Assembly (NCBI RefSeq): GCF_006540005.1
Contig: NZ_BJOC01000028.1
Span: forward strand, 1 to 64,000
DNA length: 64,000 nucleotides
Source: Halomonas halmophila
GTDB lineage: Bacteria > Pseudomonadota > Gammaproteobacteria > Pseudomonadales > Halomonadaceae
Direction of reading: 5' to 3'
Positions 10,548 to 61,420 of the stretch are shown in pieces. A program made the position numbers and the translations under genes. Numbering within the stretch: the stretch's first letter is position 1; every line of letters begins with the position of its first letter. Below the pieces are notes generated by a model, which had not been told where the DNA came from, ran no database searches, and saw only the letters and a program-made list of their open reading frames with translations.

Positions 10548-11444
10548 ATGCGCGCCTACCGCGGCCGCTTCGCCCCCACCCCTTCTGGCCCCTTGCATTT
10601 CGGCTCGCTGATCGCGGCCCTGGCCAGCTATCTGGATGCCCGGCATCAACAGGGACAGTGGCTGCTGCGTATCGAGGATATCGACCCGCCGCGTTGCCCG
10701 GCCGGTGCCGCGGCGACCATTCAGCGCCAGCTCGAGGCCTTCGGCCTGCACTGGGACGGCCCGGTGCTCTGGCAGCATGATCGCAATGCGGCCTACCAGC
10801 AGGCGCTCGAGCGTCTCGCGGCACTGGGGCTGGCCTACCCCTGCAGTTGTTCGCGCAAGCAGTGGCGGGACCACTCGATCTATCCGGGCTGGTGCCGTGA
10901 CGGCCCACGGGAACCCGACAGCCCCCTCGCCTGGCGGCTGCGTACCGACCTCGGCCCGACCCCGGTCAGCTGGCAGGACCGCCTGTTCGGTCATCAGCAG
11001 TTTACGCCGACCGCCATGGGCGATGTGGTGCTCAAGCGCAAGGACGGCCTCTGGGCCTACCAGCTGGCGGTCGTGGTGGATGATGCCGACCAGGGCATCA
11101 GCGACATCGTGCGCGGCGCCGACCTCCTCGACAACACCCCCTGGCAGCGTCAACTGCAGCATGCTCTGGACCTGCCGACGCCTCGCTACCTGCATCTGCC
11201 ATTGATTCTCGCCGACAACGGGCAGAAGCTGTCGAAGCAGAACCTGGCCCCGGCCCTGCCCGAAACACCCGACGCGGCCCGCCCCCTGCTGCATCGCGCG
11301 CTGGTCGCGCTGGACCAGGCGCCCCCGGCATCCCTGGCCAGCGAGCCGGTGCACACCCAGCTCGACTGGGCCATCGCGCACTGGTCGCCGCGCTCCCTGC
11401 AGGCCACGGCGGAGCGGCGTGAACCCAGGCACAACGGCTTTTAG
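10548..11444 (+). CDS. gluQ: Glutamyl-Q tRNA(Asp) synthetase
   Basis: A truncated GluRS paralogue that attaches glutamate to the queuosine base of tRNA-Asp rather than to the 3' end. The 298-residue product lacks an anticodon-binding domain. HFGS at 17-20 is the HIGH-type motif, KLSKQN is the degenerate KMSKS, and C99, C101, Y112 and C116 form the family's zinc site. GGAG before the ATG at 10548 supports the start. It lies in the dksA-gluQ-cbrX-cbrA order seen in Pseudomonas. Confidence 0.95.
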
Positions 11445-11647: not shown

Positions 11648-14608
11648 ATGAGCCTGAACCTCCCCGGCCTGCTGATGCTCGGCATCGGTTACCTGTCACT
11701 GCTCTTCCTCAGCGCCACGGCCGTCGATCGCGGCTGGCTGCCCAGGCGGCTGGTCCGCCATCCGGCGGTCTATATCCTGGCCCTGGGCGTCTACGCCAGC
11801 GCCTGGGCCGTCTACGGCAGCCTCGAGTTCGCCAGCCGCTATGGCTTCGGCTATCTGGCCTATTACCTCGGCGTTGCCGGCGCCTTCCTGCTGGCCCCAG
11901 TGCTGCTGGTCCCCATCCAGCGCATGACACGCACGCACCAGCTGGCCTCGCTGGCCGATCTGTTCGCCTTTCGCTTCCGTTCGCGCTGGGTCGGCACCCT
12001 GATGACAGTGGTCAGCCTGCTGGCCGTACTGCCCTTGCTGGCGTTGCAGATACAGACCATGGGCCAGGCCATCCACCGCCTCAGCGGCAGCGCCTCCCCG
12101 GCACTGCTGGCGCTGGGCTTCAGCCTGTTGATCGCCTTGTTCGCCATGCTGTTCGGCGCGCGTCACACGCACCAGCATGCCCGCCATGACGGCCTGCTCG
12201 CGGCCATTGCCCTGGAATCGCTGGTCAAGCTGGCCGCCATGCTGGCGCTCGGCGGGGTGGCCCTGTTCGGTGTCTTCAACGGTCCCGCGGACCTGCAGAG
12301 CTGGCTCGATGGCGCCGGCCACGTCAGCCAGACACGCATCGCCCAGCTCGACCCCGGACAGTGGCGCACCCTGCTGCTGCTGTTCTTCGCAGCGGCCTTT
12401 TTGATGCCGCACATGTTCCACATCGCCTTCGCCGAGACGCTGGACCGGCGCACGCTCCTGCAGTCCAGCTGGGCATTGCCGCTGTTTCTGCTGCTGATGG
12501 CCCTGCCGATTCCCTTGATCCTGTGGGCCAGCCAGCGCCTGGGCGTCGACGAAGTGGGCGCCGGGGCGGCTTACCTGGCCTTCGGCCTGTCCACGTCCTG
12601 GTGGGTCGACGGCCTGGCCTTCATCGCCGGCCTGGCCGCCGCCAGCGGGACCATGATCATCATCTCGCTGGCGCTGTCGGGCATGATGCTGAACCATATG
12701 GTGCTGGTGGCCCACCCGCCGATCGCTCAGCCCGACCTCTATCGCTGGCTGCGCTGGCTGCGGCGCGGCTTGATCGCCGCGGTCATCCTGGCCGGCTGGC
12801 TGTTCTATCGACTGGTCGGCGTGCATCACGACCTCTCCGCCCTGGGCCTGGCTTCCTTCGTCGGCGTGGCCCAGTGCCTGCCGGGTATGCTGGCGCTGCT
12901 CTACTGGCCGGGTGCCAACCGCAAGGGCATGGTCAGCGGGCTCAGCGTGGGCGTGGTGATCTGGCTGGCGGGCCTGTGGGTGCCATTGCTGACGCCCTAT
13001 CCCGGCCTGGTCCTGCTGCCGCCAGGCCTCGATGTGCTGGCCGGCGAACCCGACTGGTACAGCGTCACCCTGGTCGCGCTGGCGGCCAATATCCTGACCT
13101 TCATCCTGGTCTCCCTGGCCACGCAGACCTCGACCGGCGAACGTGCCGCCGCCGAGGCCTGCTCCGTGGACGCCGTGGTGCGTCCCATGCGCCTGCCGCT
13201 GGCCGCCGCCAACGGTGCCGAGTTCAAGCAGCAGCTGGCCGGGGTACTGGGCGCCGATGTCGCCGGCCGGGAAGTCGAGAGGGCCCTGACGGCTCTCGAG
13301 ATGTCGCCCCTGGACGCCCGGCCCTACGCCCTGCGCCGCCTGCGTGACCGTATTCAGGCCAATCTTTCCGGCCTGATGGGCCCTTCGGTGGCCCAGGACA
13401 TCGTCGACCGCTGCCTGCCCTATCAGCACGACGGCCCGGTCGCCAGCGAGGACATCCACTTCGTCGAGAACCGGCTCGAAGCCTATCGCTCGCGCCTCAC
13501 CGGCCTGGCACGCGAACTCGACAGCCTGCGGCGCTACCATCGGCGGACGCTCACCCGCCTGCCCATCGGCCTGTGCGCCTTCGGCGAGGACGGTGAACTG
13601 CTGATGTGGAATGATGCCCTGGCCGAACTGTCGGGCATCGCCGGCGAGGCCGTGCTCGGCGCGCACCGCGAGACTCTGCCGGCCCCCTGGAACACCCTGC
13701 TGGGGCAGATTCTCGCGGCACCCCAGGAGCGGCTCTACAAGCAGCCGGTCAGCCTGGCACACGGCGAACGCTTCCTGACCCTGCACCGCGCCGGCCTGCA
13801 GGGCGAACAGGGCGAGGATGGCGGTCATGTCATCCTGGTCGAGGATCACAGCGAAATGAAATGGCTCGAGGACGAGCTGATTCATGCCGCGCGCCTGGCC
13901 TCCATCGGCCAGTTGGCCACCGGCGTGGCCCACGAGATCGGCAATCCGATCACCGGCATTTCCTCGCTGGCCCAGAACCTGCGCTACGACACCGAGGACC
14001 CGGCACTGCGCGAAACCGCCGACCAGATTCAGGGCCTCACCGATCGTGTCTCGCAGATCGTCGGTTCGCTGGTGGGCTTCGCCCATGGCGGCCGGCATGT
14101 CACCGGGGCCGGCTTTACTGCCACCCGCATGCAGGAGGTGACCGAGGAGGCCCTGCACTTGATTCGACTCGCCCGCTCGGGGGACGATATACACTACATC
14201 AATCGCTGTGCGGCCGATCAGGTCGTGATGGGCGACGCACAGCGCCTGCAGCAGGTGATGCTCAACCTGCTGGGCAATGCCCGGGACGCCAGCGAGGCCG
14301 GTGCCCAGGTCATCATCGAGGCCGTGCCCCAGGCAGCCTACCTGCACCTGAGCATCACCGACGAAGGCCGCGGCATCGACCCGGAGGTGCGCGACCACCT
14401 CTTCGAGCCCTTCACGACCACCAAACCCGCAGGCGAAGGAACCGGGCTCGGCCTGCCGCTGGTCTACAGCATCATCGCCGAGCATGATGGGCATATTGAC
14501 ATCGAGTCGCCGCCCGCGGGACATGCCGGCGGCACTCGCATCCACCTGTGGCTGCCCCTGTACCGAGAAGGTGACGAAGGCCCCCATGAGCCGGATTCTG
14601 ATCGTTGA
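11648..14608 (+). CDS. cbrA: Sensor histidine kinase CbrA with SLC5-like transporter domain
   Basis: Membrane sensor of the CbrAB system, which governs carbon/nitrogen balance and use of amino acids as carbon sources. The 986-residue product has about 13 transmembrane helices of the sodium/solute symporter (SLC5) type in the first half, then a linker, a PAS-like domain (about 630-730), HisKA with H762 in VAHEIGNP, and an HATPase domain ending in [13 protein letters not shown] 11648 aligns with the Pseudomonas N-terminus (MSL); an ATG at 11639 is only two bases from the AGGGGG site. It overlaps cbrB by 23 bases. Confidence 0.95.
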
Positions 14609-15986
14609 AGACGAAGCCATCATTCGCAGCGCCCTGAGGCGGCTGTTGGAGCGGCATGACCATCATGTCAGCGAGGCGGCCTCCATCGACGAGGCCCGTG
14701 CGCTCGAGCCCCAGGGCCAGGATCTGGTCATCGCCGACCTGCGCCTGCCCGGCGAGCCGGGGACCGACCTCATTCGGCTGGCGGACCCGGTGCCGGTGCT
14801 GATCATGACCAGCTATGCCAGCATGCGATCAGCCGTCGAGGCGCTCAAGCTCGGCGCCGTCGACTATGTGGCCAAGCCCTTCGATCATGACGAGCTGCTC
14901 GAGACGGTCTCGCGCATCCTGCACCAGCAGGCCAGCCGCCGCACCGAGCCGCCCGACGTCACCGACCCGGTCGGCCAGGCGCAACCCATGATAGGGCGCT
15001 GCCCGGCCATGCAGGCCGTCTACACACGCATCCGCAAGACCGCGCCCGCGGATGTCACCGTGCTCATCCAGGGCGAGTCGGGCACCGGCAAGGAACTGGT
15101 CGCCCGCGCCCTGCACCAGCAGAGCCGGCGCGCCGCCGCCCCGCTGATCTGCGTCAACTGCGCCGCCATCCCCGAGACGCTGATCGAGTCCGAGCTCTTC
15201 GGTCACGAGAAGGGCGCCTTCACCGGGGCCAACAGTGCCCGCACCGGCCTGGTCGAAGCCGCCGACAACGGCACCCTGTTTCTCGACGAGATCGGCGAGC
15301 TGCCGACGGATGCCCAGGCGCGTCTGTTGCGCGTGCTGCAGGAAGGCGAGATCCGCAAGATCGGCTCGGTGGAGACGCGTCACGTCGATGTGCGCCTGAT
15401 CGCCGCCACGCACCGCGACCTGCATGCGCTGTCGCGGACCGGAGAATTCCGTCTCGACCTGTATTACCGGCTCAACGTCATGCAGATCGATCTGCCGCCC
15501 CTGCGGGACCGCGAGGACGATATCCTCGAGATCGCCGACACTCTCCTCGACAAGGCGTGCCGACGCCACCAGCGCGAGGGCCTGCGCCTCTCCCGGGCTG
15601 CCCGGCGCGTGATACGCGACGCCCCCTGGCCGGGCAATGTCCGCGAGCTGGAAAATGCCCTGGAGCGCGGCGTCATCCTCGCCGAGAGCCACCTCATTCA
15701 CCCGGATGACCTGGGCCTCGGCGGACCGCTTCCGCCGGCCACCACGCGTGCCGAGGCCCACAATGTCACCCCGCTCGACGAGGGCCCGGACCCCGCGCCG
15801 ACCAGCGACGACGCCGAGGACCTCTCCCTCGAGGATTACTTCCAGCACTTCGTGCTCGAGCATCAGGACCAGATGAGCGAAACCGAGCTGGCCCACAAGC
15901 TGGGCATCAGCCGCAAGTGCCTGTGGGAGCGGCGCCAGAAACTGGGCATTCCCCGCAAGAAGGGGCCACGCCGCCACACCGGCTGA
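14586..15986 (+). CDS. cbrB: Sigma-54-dependent response regulator CbrB
   Basis: NtrC-family activator paired with CbrA. The 466-residue protein has a receiver domain with phospho-acceptor D51, acidic D8/E9, T75 and K97. The AAA+ domain has Walker A GESGTGKE at 163-170, the sigma-54 contact loop GAFTGA at 210-215, and Walker B FLDEIGE. A Fis-type helix-turn-helix ([20 protein letters not shown]) closes it. Its start lies inside the cbrA end, so translation is coupled. An intact GAFTGA fits the sigma-54 promoter found 220 bases downstream. Confidence 0.96.
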
Positions 15987-16082
15987 CCCGCATGCCCCAC
16001 CGGCGCGGCCGGCCTGCAACCAAAGTGTGAGAGAAGCCCTGCCTCCCGTTCTCTGTCCGGCACCCCGTAGCGCGCACCAGAT

Positions 16083-16133
16083 TGTTACCTTCCCACACAG
16101 CGCATGCGCCACCACGGGGCAGAGCGGGTAACA
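16083..16133 (+). promoter_or_regulatory. TGTTACC / GGTAACA inverted half-sites upstream of the CrcZ-like RNA
   Basis: TGTTACC at 16083-16089 and its exact complement GGTAACA at 16127-16133 flank a 37-base spacer and lie roughly 75-125 bases before the sigma-54 promoter, a normal place for an NtrC-type upstream activating sequence. As I recall, CbrB sites in Pseudomonas are TGTTAC/GTAACA dyads with a shorter spacer (N14), so the half-sites agree but the spacing does not. Confidence 0.55.
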
Positions 16134-16208
16134 CAGCCCTTACCGGAGCCCCATGACAAATCGATGAAAAACCATAAGACACTGTCTAAAAACAGCTTTC
16201 ATCATTCT

Positions 16209-16224
16209 GGCACGAGCTCTGCAA
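16209..16224 (+). promoter_or_regulatory. Sigma-54 promoter of the CrcZ-like RNA
   Basis: TGGCACGAGCTCTGCA matches the sigma-54 consensus TGGCACRNNNNTTGCW at every defined position but one (C for T at position 12). The invariant GG (16210-16211) and GC (16222-16223) are correctly spaced. Transcription should start near 16235. In Pseudomonas, crcZ is driven from a CbrB-dependent sigma-54 promoter at the same place. Confidence 0.85.
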
Positions 16225-16234
16225 TTAAATAGGC

Positions 16235-16720
16235 AAGAAAAACAATCCGGATGTCACCACGGCCGCCAACAATAACAACGGCTCGCAAGGTGACAGGATC
16301 CGACCCGACAACAACAAGTCCCCGGGTCGAGACACTGGAGCCCCATGCCGACCAACAACAACAGCACGGCATGCATGAGCTCTGTTCGAGGCCAACAACG
16401 ACAATATCCTCGAGAACCGGAAAATGACGCGACGCACCCATCACCGACCGCCAACAACAACAAGGGTCGCCGAGGTGCACTCCCGGTAACAACAACAAGC
16501 CATCGGGAGGAGGTATGCCAGGCATGCCGTCGTGGTTGGATTATTGTTTTGAATACGAGGCGGTCGCTGCCAGGAGCAGCACAAGGACAACAACATGCTT
16601 GCCTGAGACTCCTTGGTGACTGTGGTGCGTATTCAAGGCGATGTGCCATCACGAAGAAAAACAGCAGCTCGCGAGCTGCCATCTGCAACATTCCGGGGAG
16701 GCCACTGGCCTCCCCTTTCT
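16235..16720 (+). ncRNA. crcZ: CrcZ-like Hfq/Crc-titrating small RNA
   Basis: About 486 nt between cbrB and pcnB, the locus of Pseudomonas crcZ. It runs from the sigma-54 start to a strong intrinsic terminator. It carries A-rich AANAANAA motifs (the CA motif bound by Hfq with Crc) at 16236-16246, 16268-16278, 16310-16317, 16354-16361, 16394-16404, 16453-16463, 16488-16498, 16589-16595 and 16654-16661; the middle seven are AACAACAA-type. The expected role is to sequester Hfq/Crc and relieve carbon catabolite repression when CbrB is active. No credible ORF spans it. The repeats differ from the AAUAAUAA type I recall for Pseudomonas, so a family model may miss it. Confidence 0.85.
16695..16720 (+). 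terminator. Intrinsic terminator of the CrcZ-like RNA
   Basis: A perfect 9-bp stem GGGGAGGCC/GGCCTCCCC with a 3-base loop, directly followed by TTTCT. It would also insulate pcnB from crcZ transcription. Confidence 0.85.
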
Positions 16721-16926: not shown

Positions 16927-18327
16927 ATGATCAAAGGTTTTACCCGCTTTCTGCAGAGCCCGGGCGAGCACCTCAAGTCGCTGTTCGGCACTCAGGATGC
17001 GCCGGCCGGAGGCCCAGTGCTGCGCATCATTCCCCGCGAAGATCACCCTGTCTCGCGCCAGCTTTTCAGTGACTCGGCGCTCAAGGTGCTGTATCGCCTG
17101 CACAATGCCGGGTTCGAGGCCTTCCTGGTCGGCGGCTGCATTCGCGATGCCCTGCTCGGGCGCCAGCCCAAGGACTTCGACGTGGCAACCGACGCCACGC
17201 CGGAAGAGGTGCGCGACCTGTTCCGCAACTCGCGCCTCATCGGCCGGCGCTTCCGCATCGTTCACGTCCGCTTCGGCCGTGAAGTCATCGAGGTCACCAC
17301 CTTTCGCGGCAAACCGAGTGAAGATGACGGCCAGAACGTGGCGCACCAGTCCGATGACGGCATGCTGCTGCGCGACAACGTCTGGGGCAATATCGAAGAG
17401 GACGCCCTGCGTCGCGACTTTTCGATCAATGCCCTCTACTACAACATCGCCGACTTCTCGATCCATGACTTCGCCGATGGCGTGCGTGATATCGAATCGC
17501 GCACCCTACGGCTGATCGGCGATCCGGCGACCCGTTACCGCGAGGACCCGGTGCGCATGCTGCGCGCCATTCGCTTCGCCGCCAAGCTGGACTTCCAGCT
17601 CGACGTCGAGACCGAGGCGCCGCTCGAGGAACTGGCGCCCCTGTTGTTGCAGGTGCCACCGGCACGCCTGTTCGACGAAGTCCTCAAGCTGTTCATGAAC
17701 GGCTACGGCGTCGAGACCTATCACCTGCTGCGTGACTACGGCCTCTTCCCCATGCTGTTCCCGGAAACCGACGAGGCCTTCGACGAGCTGCCCTGGGCCG
17801 ACGCCGTGATCGAAAGAGCGCTGGCCAGCACCGATGAGCGCGTGCAACAGGACCGGCCGGTCACCCCGGCCTTCCTGTTCGCCGCCCTGCTCTGGGGCCC
17901 GGTCCAGCTTCGCCAGCGTGCCCACGAGCAGGAAGGCATGGCGCCGATCCCGGCCCTGCAGGCCGCCTCGCAGCGCGTGGTCTCGCGGCAGCTGCAGCAT
18001 GTCGCCATCCCCAAGCGCTTCAGCCTGCCCATGCGGGACATCTGGGATCTCCAGCAACGCCTGCCCAAGCGGCGCGGCAAGCGCGCCTTCCAGACACGCG
18101 AGCACCCGCGCTTCCGTGCCGCCTTCGACTTCCTGCTGCTGCGCGAGGCCGCCGGCGAGCTCGAACCGGGTCTCGGCGACTGGTGGAGCGCCTTCCAGAA
18201 GGCCGATGAGCACGAACAGCGCCGCCTGCTCGGCAAGGTCGATGCCGATCCGGCCGGCTCTCCCGCGCCACGCAAGCGTCGCCGGCGTCGTCGGCGCAAG
18301 CCCCAGAACACGCCGTCGGACTCATGA
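16927..18327 (+). CDS. pcnB: Poly(A) polymerase I
   Basis: Adds 3' poly(A) tails that promote RNA decay. The 466-residue length equals E. coli PcnB (465). The nucleotidyltransferase head has LVGGCIRD at 67-74 and the metal-binding DFD at 83-85. The tail is very basic (RKRRRRRRRK). The frame is open from 16345, but that part lies in the CrcZ-like RNA and encodes low-complexity Asn/Thr repeats, so ATG 16927 is preferred; ATG 16876 is possible. Neither has a strong ribosome site. It overlaps folK by four bases. Confidence 0.95.
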   Translation: MIKGFTRFLQSPGEHLKSLFGTQDAPAGGPVLRIIPREDHPVSRQLFSDSALKVLYRLHNAGFEAFLVGGCIRDALLGRQPKDFDVATDATPEEVRDLFRNSRLIGRRFRIVHVRFGREVIEVTTFRGKPSEDDGQNVAHQSDDGMLLRDNVWGNIEEDALRRDFSINALYYNIADFSIHDFADGVRDIESRTLRLIGDPATRYREDPVRMLRAIRFAAKLDFQLDVETEAPLEELAPLLLQVPPARLFDEVLKLFMNGYGVETYHLLRDYGLFPMLFPETDEAFDELPWADAVIERALASTDERVQQDRPVTPAFLFAALLWGPVQLRQRAHEQEGMAPIPALQAASQRVVSRQLQHVAIPKRFSLPMRDIWDLQQRLPKRRGKRAFQTREHPRFRAAFDFLLLREAAGELEPGLGDWWSAFQKADEHEQRRLLGKVDADPAGSPAPRKRRRRRRRKPQNTPSDS

Positions 18328-26174: not shown

Positions 26175-26444
26175 TTAGCGGCGCAGGCCGAGACGCTTGA
26201 TAATCGCCTGATACCGGTCGAAATCCTTGCGCTTCAGATAGTCCAGCAGCTTGCGACGCTGGTTGACCATGCGGATCAGGCCACGACGCGAGTGGTGATC
26301 CTGCTTGTTGGTCTTGAAGTGCCCCTGCAGACCGTCGATGTTGGCGGTCAGCAGTGCCACCTGAACCTCGGGGGAACCAGTGTCGTTTTCACCACGGCCG
26401 TGTTCGTTGACGATCGCGGCTTTCTGTTCTGCGGTCAGTGCCAT
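26175..26444 (-). CDS. rpsO: 30S ribosomal protein S15
   Basis: Primary 16S rRNA-binding protein of the 30S platform, 89 residues as in E. coli. The family block [25 protein letters not shown] binds the 16S three-way junction. It sits between truB and pnp, the universal proteobacterial order, with its own leader of paired hairpins where S15 autoregulation would act. Confidence 0.98.
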
Positions 26445-26483
26445 CTGTCTCTCCAGTAAGCAATATGCCTAATGATGAATGTC

Positions 26484-26532
26484 GGGGACCACGCATATTT
26501 GCAGTCCCCACGCCCAGTCCGTGTCGGACTGG
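26484..26532 (-). promoter_or_regulatory. rpsO mRNA leader with two hairpins
   Basis: CCAGTCCG/CGGACTGG (26514-26532) directly follows the truB stop and GGGGAC/GTCCCC (26484-26509) follows it, within 90 bases of the rpsO start. E. coli S15 represses its own mRNA through a structured leader; an analogous element here is plausible, but the fold differs and was not modelled. Confidence 0.4.
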
Positions 26533-32666: not shown

Positions 32667-32743
<77 letters not shown>

Positions 32744-32868
32744 TCAATCTAGGTCGGTGATTGTATGCCCGATGCCTGCCGGCGTCAAGCTACAACGCTA
32801 CCGTTCTGCCAATCCTGCTACTGAGGCCGACACTCGCATGCTCACTGCCCTGCGGAGTCGGTTTCAGA

Positions 32869-32955
32869 TGGTGCCGAAGGCGGGACTTGAACCCGCACGA
32901 CCGTAAGGCCACTACCCCCTCAAGATAGCGTGTCTACCAATTCCACCACTTCGGC
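32869..32955 (-). tRNA. tRNA-Leu (GAG)
   Basis: An 87-nt class II tRNA with encoded CCA. The acceptor stem GCCGAAG/CTTCGGC is perfect. The anticodon stem-loop CTATC-TTGAGGG-GGTAG gives GAG, and the long variable arm follows. It lies between secG and the initiator tRNA, as in E. coli and Pseudomonas. Confidence 0.97.
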
Positions 32956-61040: not shown

Positions 61041-61420
61041 GGGGGCGACATGGCTTCGACGCCGGCGACAACCCCTGAGGTGCATGCCGAGAGTGTGATG
61101 TATCTCGTAAATACAACATCACGACTAAATAGTCGCAAACGACGACAACTACGCTCAGGGCGCGCTGGCAGCGTAACAACTGCTAGCTTCTAGTCCGACC
61201 CGGAAGTGATGTGCCCATTCATCACGGAAGGGAACGAGCTCATAGATGATGGGATCGCGATTGGCCCTGTCCTCGTGTCAATCGTTAAAACTAAGAGGAA
61301 TCGCGCTTCTGGATCCTGATCGTCGGAGCCAGCGGTGTTAAACCAAAAGACGGAACTAAGCATGTAGAGCCGATGGGCGAGTGTCGGCGGACGCGGGTTC
61401 GATTCCCGCCGCCTCCACCA
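61041..61420 (+). ncRNA. ssrA: Transfer-messenger RNA (tmRNA)
   Basis: A 380-nt tRNA/mRNA hybrid that rescues stalled ribosomes and tags their products. The ends form an alanine-type acceptor: GGGGGCG pairs with CGCCTCC, including the G3.U70 pair that alanyl-tRNA synthetase recognises, followed by encoded ACCA. A T-arm (GCGGG-TTCGATT-CCCGC) and the tag frame are clear. The 3' end is a common integration site, and it is duplicated just downstream. Confidence 0.97.
61135..61176 (+). CDS. tmRNA tag reading frame
   Basis: The resume codon GCA at 61135 starts ANDDNYAQGALAA followed by TAA at 61174-61176. The ALAA end is the ClpXP/ClpAP degradation signal, as in E. coli (ANDENYALAA). Confidence 0.95.
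   Translation, partial: ANDDNYAQGALAA

Follow-up and report, generated by a model that had tools for sequence, protein, structure and literature searches.

Does the DNA between cbrB and pcnB in this genome encode a counterpart of CrcZ, the RNA with which Pseudomonas soaks up the proteins that hold back the use of second-choice foods? We examined the locus within a 64-kb window (the whole stretch of DNA analysed, 64,000 nucleotides), which lies on contig C28 of a genome of 3.25 Mb and in which the genes follow the order gluQ-like, cbrA, cbrB, RNA, pcnB, folK and panB (Table 1). All the sequence-level CrcZ features that were tested are present, the sole exception being recognition by the Rfam CrcZ model, and the region very probably encodes a CrcZ-type RNA that would titrate Hfq/Crc under the control of CbrB and sigma-54. 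The RNA is of a known kind; its divergent version in this family, outside Pseudomonadaceae, is new.

Table 1. Features of the cbrAB-pcnB locus, in positions of the window
Feature	Position	Strand	Support or remark
gluQ-like gene, class I Glu/Gln tRNA synthetase domain, left neighbour of cbrAB	10548..11444	+	Pfam PF00749, 2.4e-42
cbrA, sensor histidine kinase, 989 aa	11639..14608	+	HisKA + HATPase
cbrB, sigma-54-type response regulator	14484..15986	+	Response_reg + Sigma54_activat; conserved part from ~codon 30
GCACCA, half of an NtrC-type box	16074..16079	+	134 bp upstream of the -24 element
CbrB subsite (predicted), forward type TGTTAC	16083..16088	+	register -124; Pseudomonas-type loci mostly -123
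CbrB subsite (predicted), reverse type GTAACA	16128..16133	+	register -80; Pseudomonas-type loci -80 to -82
Sigma-54 promoter TGGCAC-N6-TGC, TGGCACGAGCTCTGCA	16208..16223	+	consensus score
CrcZ-type small RNA (proposed crcZ), ~486 nt	16235..16720	+	
Six hairpins, CA motifs in or near apical loops	16262..16510	+	motifs at 16268, 16310, 16354, 16394 (imperfect), 16453, 16488
Nearly invariant 3' domain	16521..16662	+	
Intrinsic terminator GGGGAGGCC-ACT-GGCCTCCCC-TTT	~16695-16720	+	terminator scan
pcnB, poly(A) polymerase, right neighbour	16927..18327	+	TIGR01942, 2.9e-159; start codon by eye

Neighbouring genes, promoter and CbrB subsites

The initial annotation had placed the RNA gene between cbrB and pcnB. 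This position was confirmed by family searches, and the gene-order comparison agrees with it, the cbrB-RNA-pcnB order being found also in the family loci whose stretch holds both genes. For the gene to the left we use the name gluQ, which we take to be the right one, and pcnB likely starts at the ATG at 16927. Over ~985 aa, CbrA shares 49-50% identity with the kinase encoded before cbrB in all three compared genomes of the Pseudomonas-type family (f21, assigned from Rfam CrcZ scores alone), and CbrB is 62-64% identical to its orthologs in those f21 genomes that carry an Rfam-positive crcZ. At the level of protein sequence, CbrAB is orthologous to the Pseudomonas-type pair. The genome belongs to genus g1, which corresponds to Halomonas in a broad sense, as a Halomonas lysinitropha record is letter-identical to a g1 locus (L012) over 600 nt around the RNA core. 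Elsewhere in the window, Rfam recognises an S15 leader (26388-26512, minus strand), a tmRNA (61041-61420, plus strand) and two tRNAs (32670-32955, minus strand), all of them ordinary.

The sigma-54 promoter proposed earlier is borne out by its consensus score and by shuffles: TGGCACGAGCTCTGCA is the sole site scoring at least 21 on either strand of the window, a score reached by 2 of 500 intergenic shuffles, and the predicted transcription start (~16234-16235) agrees with the one first annotated. All 54 family loci with cbrAB have a sigma-54 site scoring at least 18.9. In the accessible text of PMC6296734, P. putida CbrB is described as binding TGTTAC (forward) and GTAACA (reverse) subsites. 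Both types are present, in matching registers, in 54/54 cbrAB-bearing family loci and 12/12 Pseudomonas-type loci. Specifically, among the 19 family loci with positions printed, most subsites are found at -124 and -80 relative to the -24 element, with L068, L088, L089 and L090 deviating and L009 and L083 carrying an extra copy, and the 12 Pseudomonas-type loci have subsites at about -123 (-112 in L049), -103 and -81, some with one more. Compared with these promoters, which hold three or more subsites, the window holds two, keeping the outer two of the three in register and lacking the middle one. CbrB 5-mers average 2.2 per 200 bp in the family versus 0.35 in mononucleotide shuffles. Additionally, a match to Rfam RF01679 ('Pseudomonas sRNA P36') at L038:1345-1405 coincides with three CbrB subsites upstream of crcZ (1351, 1370 and 1392), and RF01679 may partly mirror conserved DNA sites, not an RNA.

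The RNA, its CA motifs and its 3' domain

The stretch 16235-16720 holds 11 overlapping AANAANAA motifs (CA motifs) in 7 separate clusters, with two near-matches by eye at 16394 and 16589. Shuffles of the same stretch hold 0.29 on average and 5 at most, and 0/2000 reach 11; on the whole plus strand of the window there are 14 AANAANAA in all, with no second cluster of such density. Of the nine A-rich motifs first annotated, the array thus stands, but the count does not. The accompanying claim that the RNA has AACAACAA instead of AAUAAUAA marks no difference in kind, as the 12 Pseudomonas-type loci themselves hold AACAACAA 25 times versus AATAATAA 5 times. The 54 cbrAB-bearing family loci retain the array (8-24 matches); L085, with cbrB present and the RNA absent, is not counted among them.

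The single-sequence fold of the window RNA is much more stable than that of shuffled sequences (z = -7.0, 0/100), and its CA motifs fall in hairpin loops. Over the 54 family RNAs, 211 of 409 CA clusters (52%) lie in hairpin loops, versus 12% when the flanks between motifs are shuffled, and 79% versus 63% are unpaired; in the 12 Pseudomonas-type RNAs, by contrast, the loops hold 17 of 69 clusters (25%, versus 9% shuffled). These loop counts used the uncorrected 3' ends of L013 and L031. Loop placement was dropped as a wholly new feature, since the accessible text of PMC5429807 already predicts it for the CrcZ of A. vinelandii. RNAalifold, run on an alignment of 38 of the 54 family RNAs (A1, without near-duplicates and the most divergent), predicts 73 pairs, 29 of which are changed on both sides. 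In particular, the two best-aligning CA hairpins show compensatory changes in 13 of 15 pairs, with 91.7% of cells pairing; 0/500 shuffles reach any of the five measures, a comparison inflated by the kinship of the sequences, and slides of 1-3 columns, which preserve kinship, give at most 49.3%.

At the end of the RNA, the terminator scan recovered the strong terminator annotated initially (~16695-16718). Terminators are found in most family loci, those of two of the 54 (L013 and L031) having been placed by hand. The family RNA, at 469-556 nt (median 503, 52 loci, these two excluded), is longer than the Pseudomonas-type RNA, which measures 364-381 nt in 9 of 12 loci.

The 3' domain contains an uninterrupted 15-pair helix with some G-U pairs, formed by AUUGUUUUGAAUACG (16543-16557) and CGUAUUCAAGGCGAU (16628-16642). 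In the core alignment (A2, 37 of 55 sequences), 30 columns are invariant, and all 15 pairs hold in the 37 aligned sequences, save one cell each at two pairs. Overlapped by the left arm is UUAUUGUU (16541-16548), which in the window is the exact reverse complement of the CA motif; divergent members keep this anti-CA stretch only from AUUG onward. By eye, the 5' end of the RNA could pair with the anti-CA stretch. A covariance model of the 3' domain (R1) has exactly one match in each of 148/151 family genomes and none in G035, G036 and G041. Applied to 62 loci, of which L085 alone belongs to the family, R1 matched none of the Pseudomonas-type loci and gave 4 weak matches in 3 loci, the best in L120 (E 2.5e-4). 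Homology of the 3' domain across families is not claimed, R1 matches there being few and weak. By eye, L120 has helix arms of both types. Among the matches listed (80 of 119), a 23-nt core pattern is present in Halomonas, Vreelandella, Billgrantia, Chromohalobacter, Salinicola, Cobetia, Onishia, Litchfieldella, Modicisalibacter, Halovibrio, Marinospirillum and Oceanospirillum, and two Oceanospirillum and two Marinospirillum loci have a sigma-54 site, 21-25 CA matches and CbrB subsites.

How does this RNA relate to known CrcZ? The covariance search with the Rfam CrcZ model (RF01675) gave the window RNA 10 bits (E 4.7, positions 281-306 only) against a gathering cut-off of 95 bits. The window RNA is therefore no member of RF01675 as drawn and is best described as a divergent variant, in line with the initial proposal of a divergent member. 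Likewise, no CrcZ match at E <= 0.05 was found in 10 family loci (including L007) or in 2 Oceanospirillum/Marinospirillum loci, the positive control L038 scoring 360.9, and the only bridge is a weak match of 22.3 bits in one family genome, G053. Shared with the CrcZ of Pseudomonas and Azotobacter are the place between cbrB and pcnB, the sigma-54 promoter, the registers of the CbrB subsites, the AANAANAA array, the terminator and the presence of crc and hfq; what sets the family RNA apart, besides its length and loop placement, is a 3' domain whose model matches nothing in Pseudomonas-type CrcZ loci. Because the Rfam score stays below the cut-off and R1 finds nothing in Pseudomonas-type loci, descent from a common ancestor with Pseudomonas CrcZ is argued from place, promoter and architecture. 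RsmY/RsmZ-type RNAs likewise titrate an RNA-binding regulator through many motifs in hairpin loops, but differ in the protein (RsmA/CsrA), the motif and the activator (GacA). CrcY and CrcX of Pseudomonas and Azotobacter, according to the accessible text of PMC8871633, share with the family RNA the character of a CA-motif RNA driven by CbrB and sigma-54; they are further genomic copies, whereas the family has one R1 match per genome (148 genomes).

Hfq, Crc and candidate targets

The absence of hfq and crc, named at the outset as evidence that would speak against a CrcZ-type RNA, is not found: both genes are present elsewhere in the genome. The hfq match (1.6e-28) has P. aeruginosa Hfq as its best PDB match. 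Of four EEP-family matches in the genome, one, the L005 protein, is closest among solved structures to a P. aeruginosa-type Crc, the catabolite repression control protein 4jg3 (PDB, 1.6e-75), and its gene, crc, is flanked by ORFs resembling rph and pyrE (names by eye); exonuclease III of this genome is a separate protein (L003, best match 1ako, 2.6e-108). Where exonuclease III reads QETK, GDFN and SDHAP, positions that we take to be the catalytic places, the L005 Crc reads QNLK, GTWN and SEYAP. A Crc without catalytic residues is described in the accessible text of Pei et al. 2019 (PMC6422490), which also names the Crc contact residues and the residues of the Hfq distal face. Among the Crc contacts named there (numbering via a 3-residue chain offset), R140, R141, E142, R229 and R230 are identical, and R137 is changed to A, F231 to H and W255 to L; the distal face of Hfq is unchanged at Q33, L26, I30, L32, Q52 and T61 and has F in place of Y25. 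All family genomes (151/151) encode a Crc-like protein at E <= 1e-60.

Candidate targets were sought as AACAANAA followed by ATG within 3-14 nt. The genome holds 46 such sites versus 16 for the backward pattern; for ACAAANAA, a control motif of equal composition, the counts are 30 versus 7, so the raw excess is not specific. Credible starts, defined as those of frames that span at least 100 codons or reach the end of the locus and are open only a short way upstream, do separate the two motifs. With 45 of the 46 sites followed (the one inside the RNA was left out), 10 of 47 distinct ATGs are credible for the CA motif versus 1 of 29 for the control. The Pfam families of these ten genes are LamB porin, DctP, TctC, SBP_bac_3, ABC permease, aldehyde dehydrogenase, AMP-binding enzyme, short-chain dehydrogenase, DUF2291 and TM2, 8 of the 10 being transport or catabolism families, and in several of them the CA motif overlaps the Shine-Dalgarno region by eye. 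As predicted from sequence, the ten gene starts have the look expected of an Hfq/Crc regulon.

By analogy with Pseudomonas, the system would work as follows. Once good carbon sources are exhausted, CbrA would activate CbrB, and CbrB, on the two upstream subsites, would prompt sigma-54 RNA polymerase to make the terminated RNA of ~486 nt. On this RNA, Hfq could bind through its distal face, jointly with Crc, at 6 or more A-rich CA motifs, many of which sit in the apical loops of GC-rich hairpins. Catabolic and transport mRNAs that carry the same motif would thereby have their ribosome-binding sites freed of Hfq/Crc and would be translated.

Distribution, loss of CbrAB and alternative readings

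CbrAB with crcZ is called unique to Pseudomonadaceae, with Pseudomonas and Azotobacter as sole hosts, in the accessible text of a 2022 review (PMC8871633), and the system is called 'exclusive of the Pseudomonads' in the abstract of PMC6296734. A literature search, with most subscription papers outside its scope, returned no description beyond Pseudomonadaceae, including in the accessible parts of PMC9049629; those of PMC5073097, PMC13086519 and PMC10748600 do not describe the system in Halomonas, and a seawater metatranscriptome reports cbrAB transcripts with no organism assignment in its accessible text (PMC5073097). In our searches, CbrB orthologs (E <= 1e-110) occur in 283 of 341 sampled genomes of the order, covering 112 of 131 genera, and in 114 of 151 family genomes; the Rfam CrcZ model matches at E <= 0.001 in 62 of the 341 and at its cut-off in 16. 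Among 31 regions behind cbrB from 23 other families, chosen in part for Rfam matches and thus not a random sample, a sigma-54 site with CbrB 5-mers is present in 27 and absent from 4, and three or more CA clusters are present in 21, the other 10 having fewer. Judging by these searches, the published view of a system confined to Pseudomonadaceae is too narrow, and the module appears to run through much of the order; most simply, it would therefore be ancestral, not a Pseudomonas invention. Used as a query against plasmids, the RNA gave no match. Some loci of other families have two or three CrcZ-like units in tandem: in L120, L114 and L091 (families f38 and f14), cbrB is followed by three sigma-54 sites per locus, most with CbrB subsites before them and all with CA motifs after them.

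The initial annotation extended CbrAB-CrcZ carbon repression to this lineage. Sequence features support this, but not for all relatives, as 35 of the 148 RNA-bearing genomes lack CbrAB. Specifically, CbrB falls below the cut-off in 37/151 family genomes, 35 of which still carry the RNA by R1, and a CbrA search in all 37 returned only kinases of 31-38% identity, most over the N-terminal half (E = 0 in each of two control genomes, 3.6e-299 in G041). In the 13 of these 35 that were inspected (L127-L137, L122 and L126), the sigma-54 site (19.2-21.4), 10-17 CA motifs and the core are all kept, and the RNA adjoins pcnB. The GRFAPTPSG motif of the gluQ-like gene lies ~1.1-1.2 kb before the promoter in 13/13, which puts that gene immediately ahead of the RNA gene and leaves no room for cbrAB. 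Similarly, in four 8-kb loci of Salinicola (genus g10, identified via two letter-identical loci), pcnB is present and cbrA and cbrB are absent. Of the CbrB 6-mers, TGTTAC occurs in 1/13 and GTAACA in 0/13 of the CbrAB-less loci, L133 having 5-mers of both kinds elsewhere. The joint loss of activator and subsites, with the promoter kept, speaks for genuine subsites and for a different driver of the RNA in these genomes. The converse case is seen in G041 (genus g30; L138 and L085), where cbrA and cbrB are present and neither a sigma-54/CA RNA in the 1.5 kb behind cbrB nor an R1 match was found.

The GCACCA element bears on what this driver may be. It is present in 13/13 inspected CbrAB-less loci (at -102 to -155, mostly ~-133), in 42/54 cbrAB-bearing family loci and in 0/12 Pseudomonas-type loci; being half of an NtrC box and common to the CbrAB-bearing relatives, it makes NtrC the first candidate. 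Perfect TGCACY-N5-RGTGCA boxes occur at only two sites in the genome, one of them beside ntrB- and glnA-like ORFs (names by eye). The crcZ promoters hold NtrC half-boxes, the best 17-mer mismatching at a mean of 4.35 of 14 positions in loci with cbrAB and 3.46 in loci without, compared with ~5.7 in shuffles and 6.17 in Pseudomonas-type loci. With half-boxes and mismatch means of this size, NtrC control is no more than a hypothesis. Tentatively, and with more doubt than confidence, we suggest that in Salinicola and at least four other genera another sigma-54 activator, perhaps NtrC, drives the RNA and that nitrogen status relieves carbon repression there; in the genera with CbrAB both inputs might meet, and the anti-CA stretch might set how many Hfq/Crc sites are open.

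The main job of the RNA might instead reside in the 3' domain, through anti-CA pairing with the CA motifs of mRNAs or through binding of a partner, with Hfq/Crc titration as a secondary role. The near-invariance of this domain exceeds what a sponge needs and counts against a view of pure titration: R1 recovers it in 148/151 family genomes, 30 columns are invariant in the 37 cores, and the 23-nt core pattern extends to Oceanospirillum and Marinospirillum. However, the CA array is kept throughout the 54 cbrAB loci and the 13 inspected without cbrAB, and since the invariant arms pair without a break over 15 pairs, some of them G-U, their invariance could reflect structure alone. We consider this reading improbable, though the most probable of the alternatives.

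Much less probable is a sigma-54-driven leader of pcnB that acts in cis and is no free RNA. Such a leader would account for the RNA staying beside pcnB in the 13 loci without cbrAB, and for family f8 (L063 and L111), in which the one-contig genome G337 has its Rfam CrcZ match and cbrB ~187 kb apart (C1:6775215 and C1:6962056) and G165 has its Rfam CrcZ match before pcnB, near a contig end (L063); the strong terminator ~200 bp before pcnB in the window, and those in most family loci, argue against it. That the stretch encodes a small protein is hardly credible at all, despite a pcnB frame open up to 16345, a 145-codon ORF on the minus strand and a core that, by eye, could translate into a short peptide. 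Among 110 loci scanned, the pcnB frame is open for more than 400 nt only in the window, L024 and L027, so the opening is not conserved; the two minus-strand ORFs have no NCBIfam or Pfam match and the pcnB-frame extension no Pfam match, in agreement with the earlier statement that no credible ORF is present. Moreover, by eye, the 38 aligned RNAs do not share a start codon and reading frame in the core, and the changes among them track base pairing.

Returning to the CrcZ-type RNA as the favoured reading, the divergent set of RNAs lets required features be told from incidental ones, and the genera that retain the RNA without its known activator are a natural experiment on RNA control. Halomonas strains are used to make bioplastics, and a carbon-hierarchy switch in Halomonas would be a direct engineering handle.
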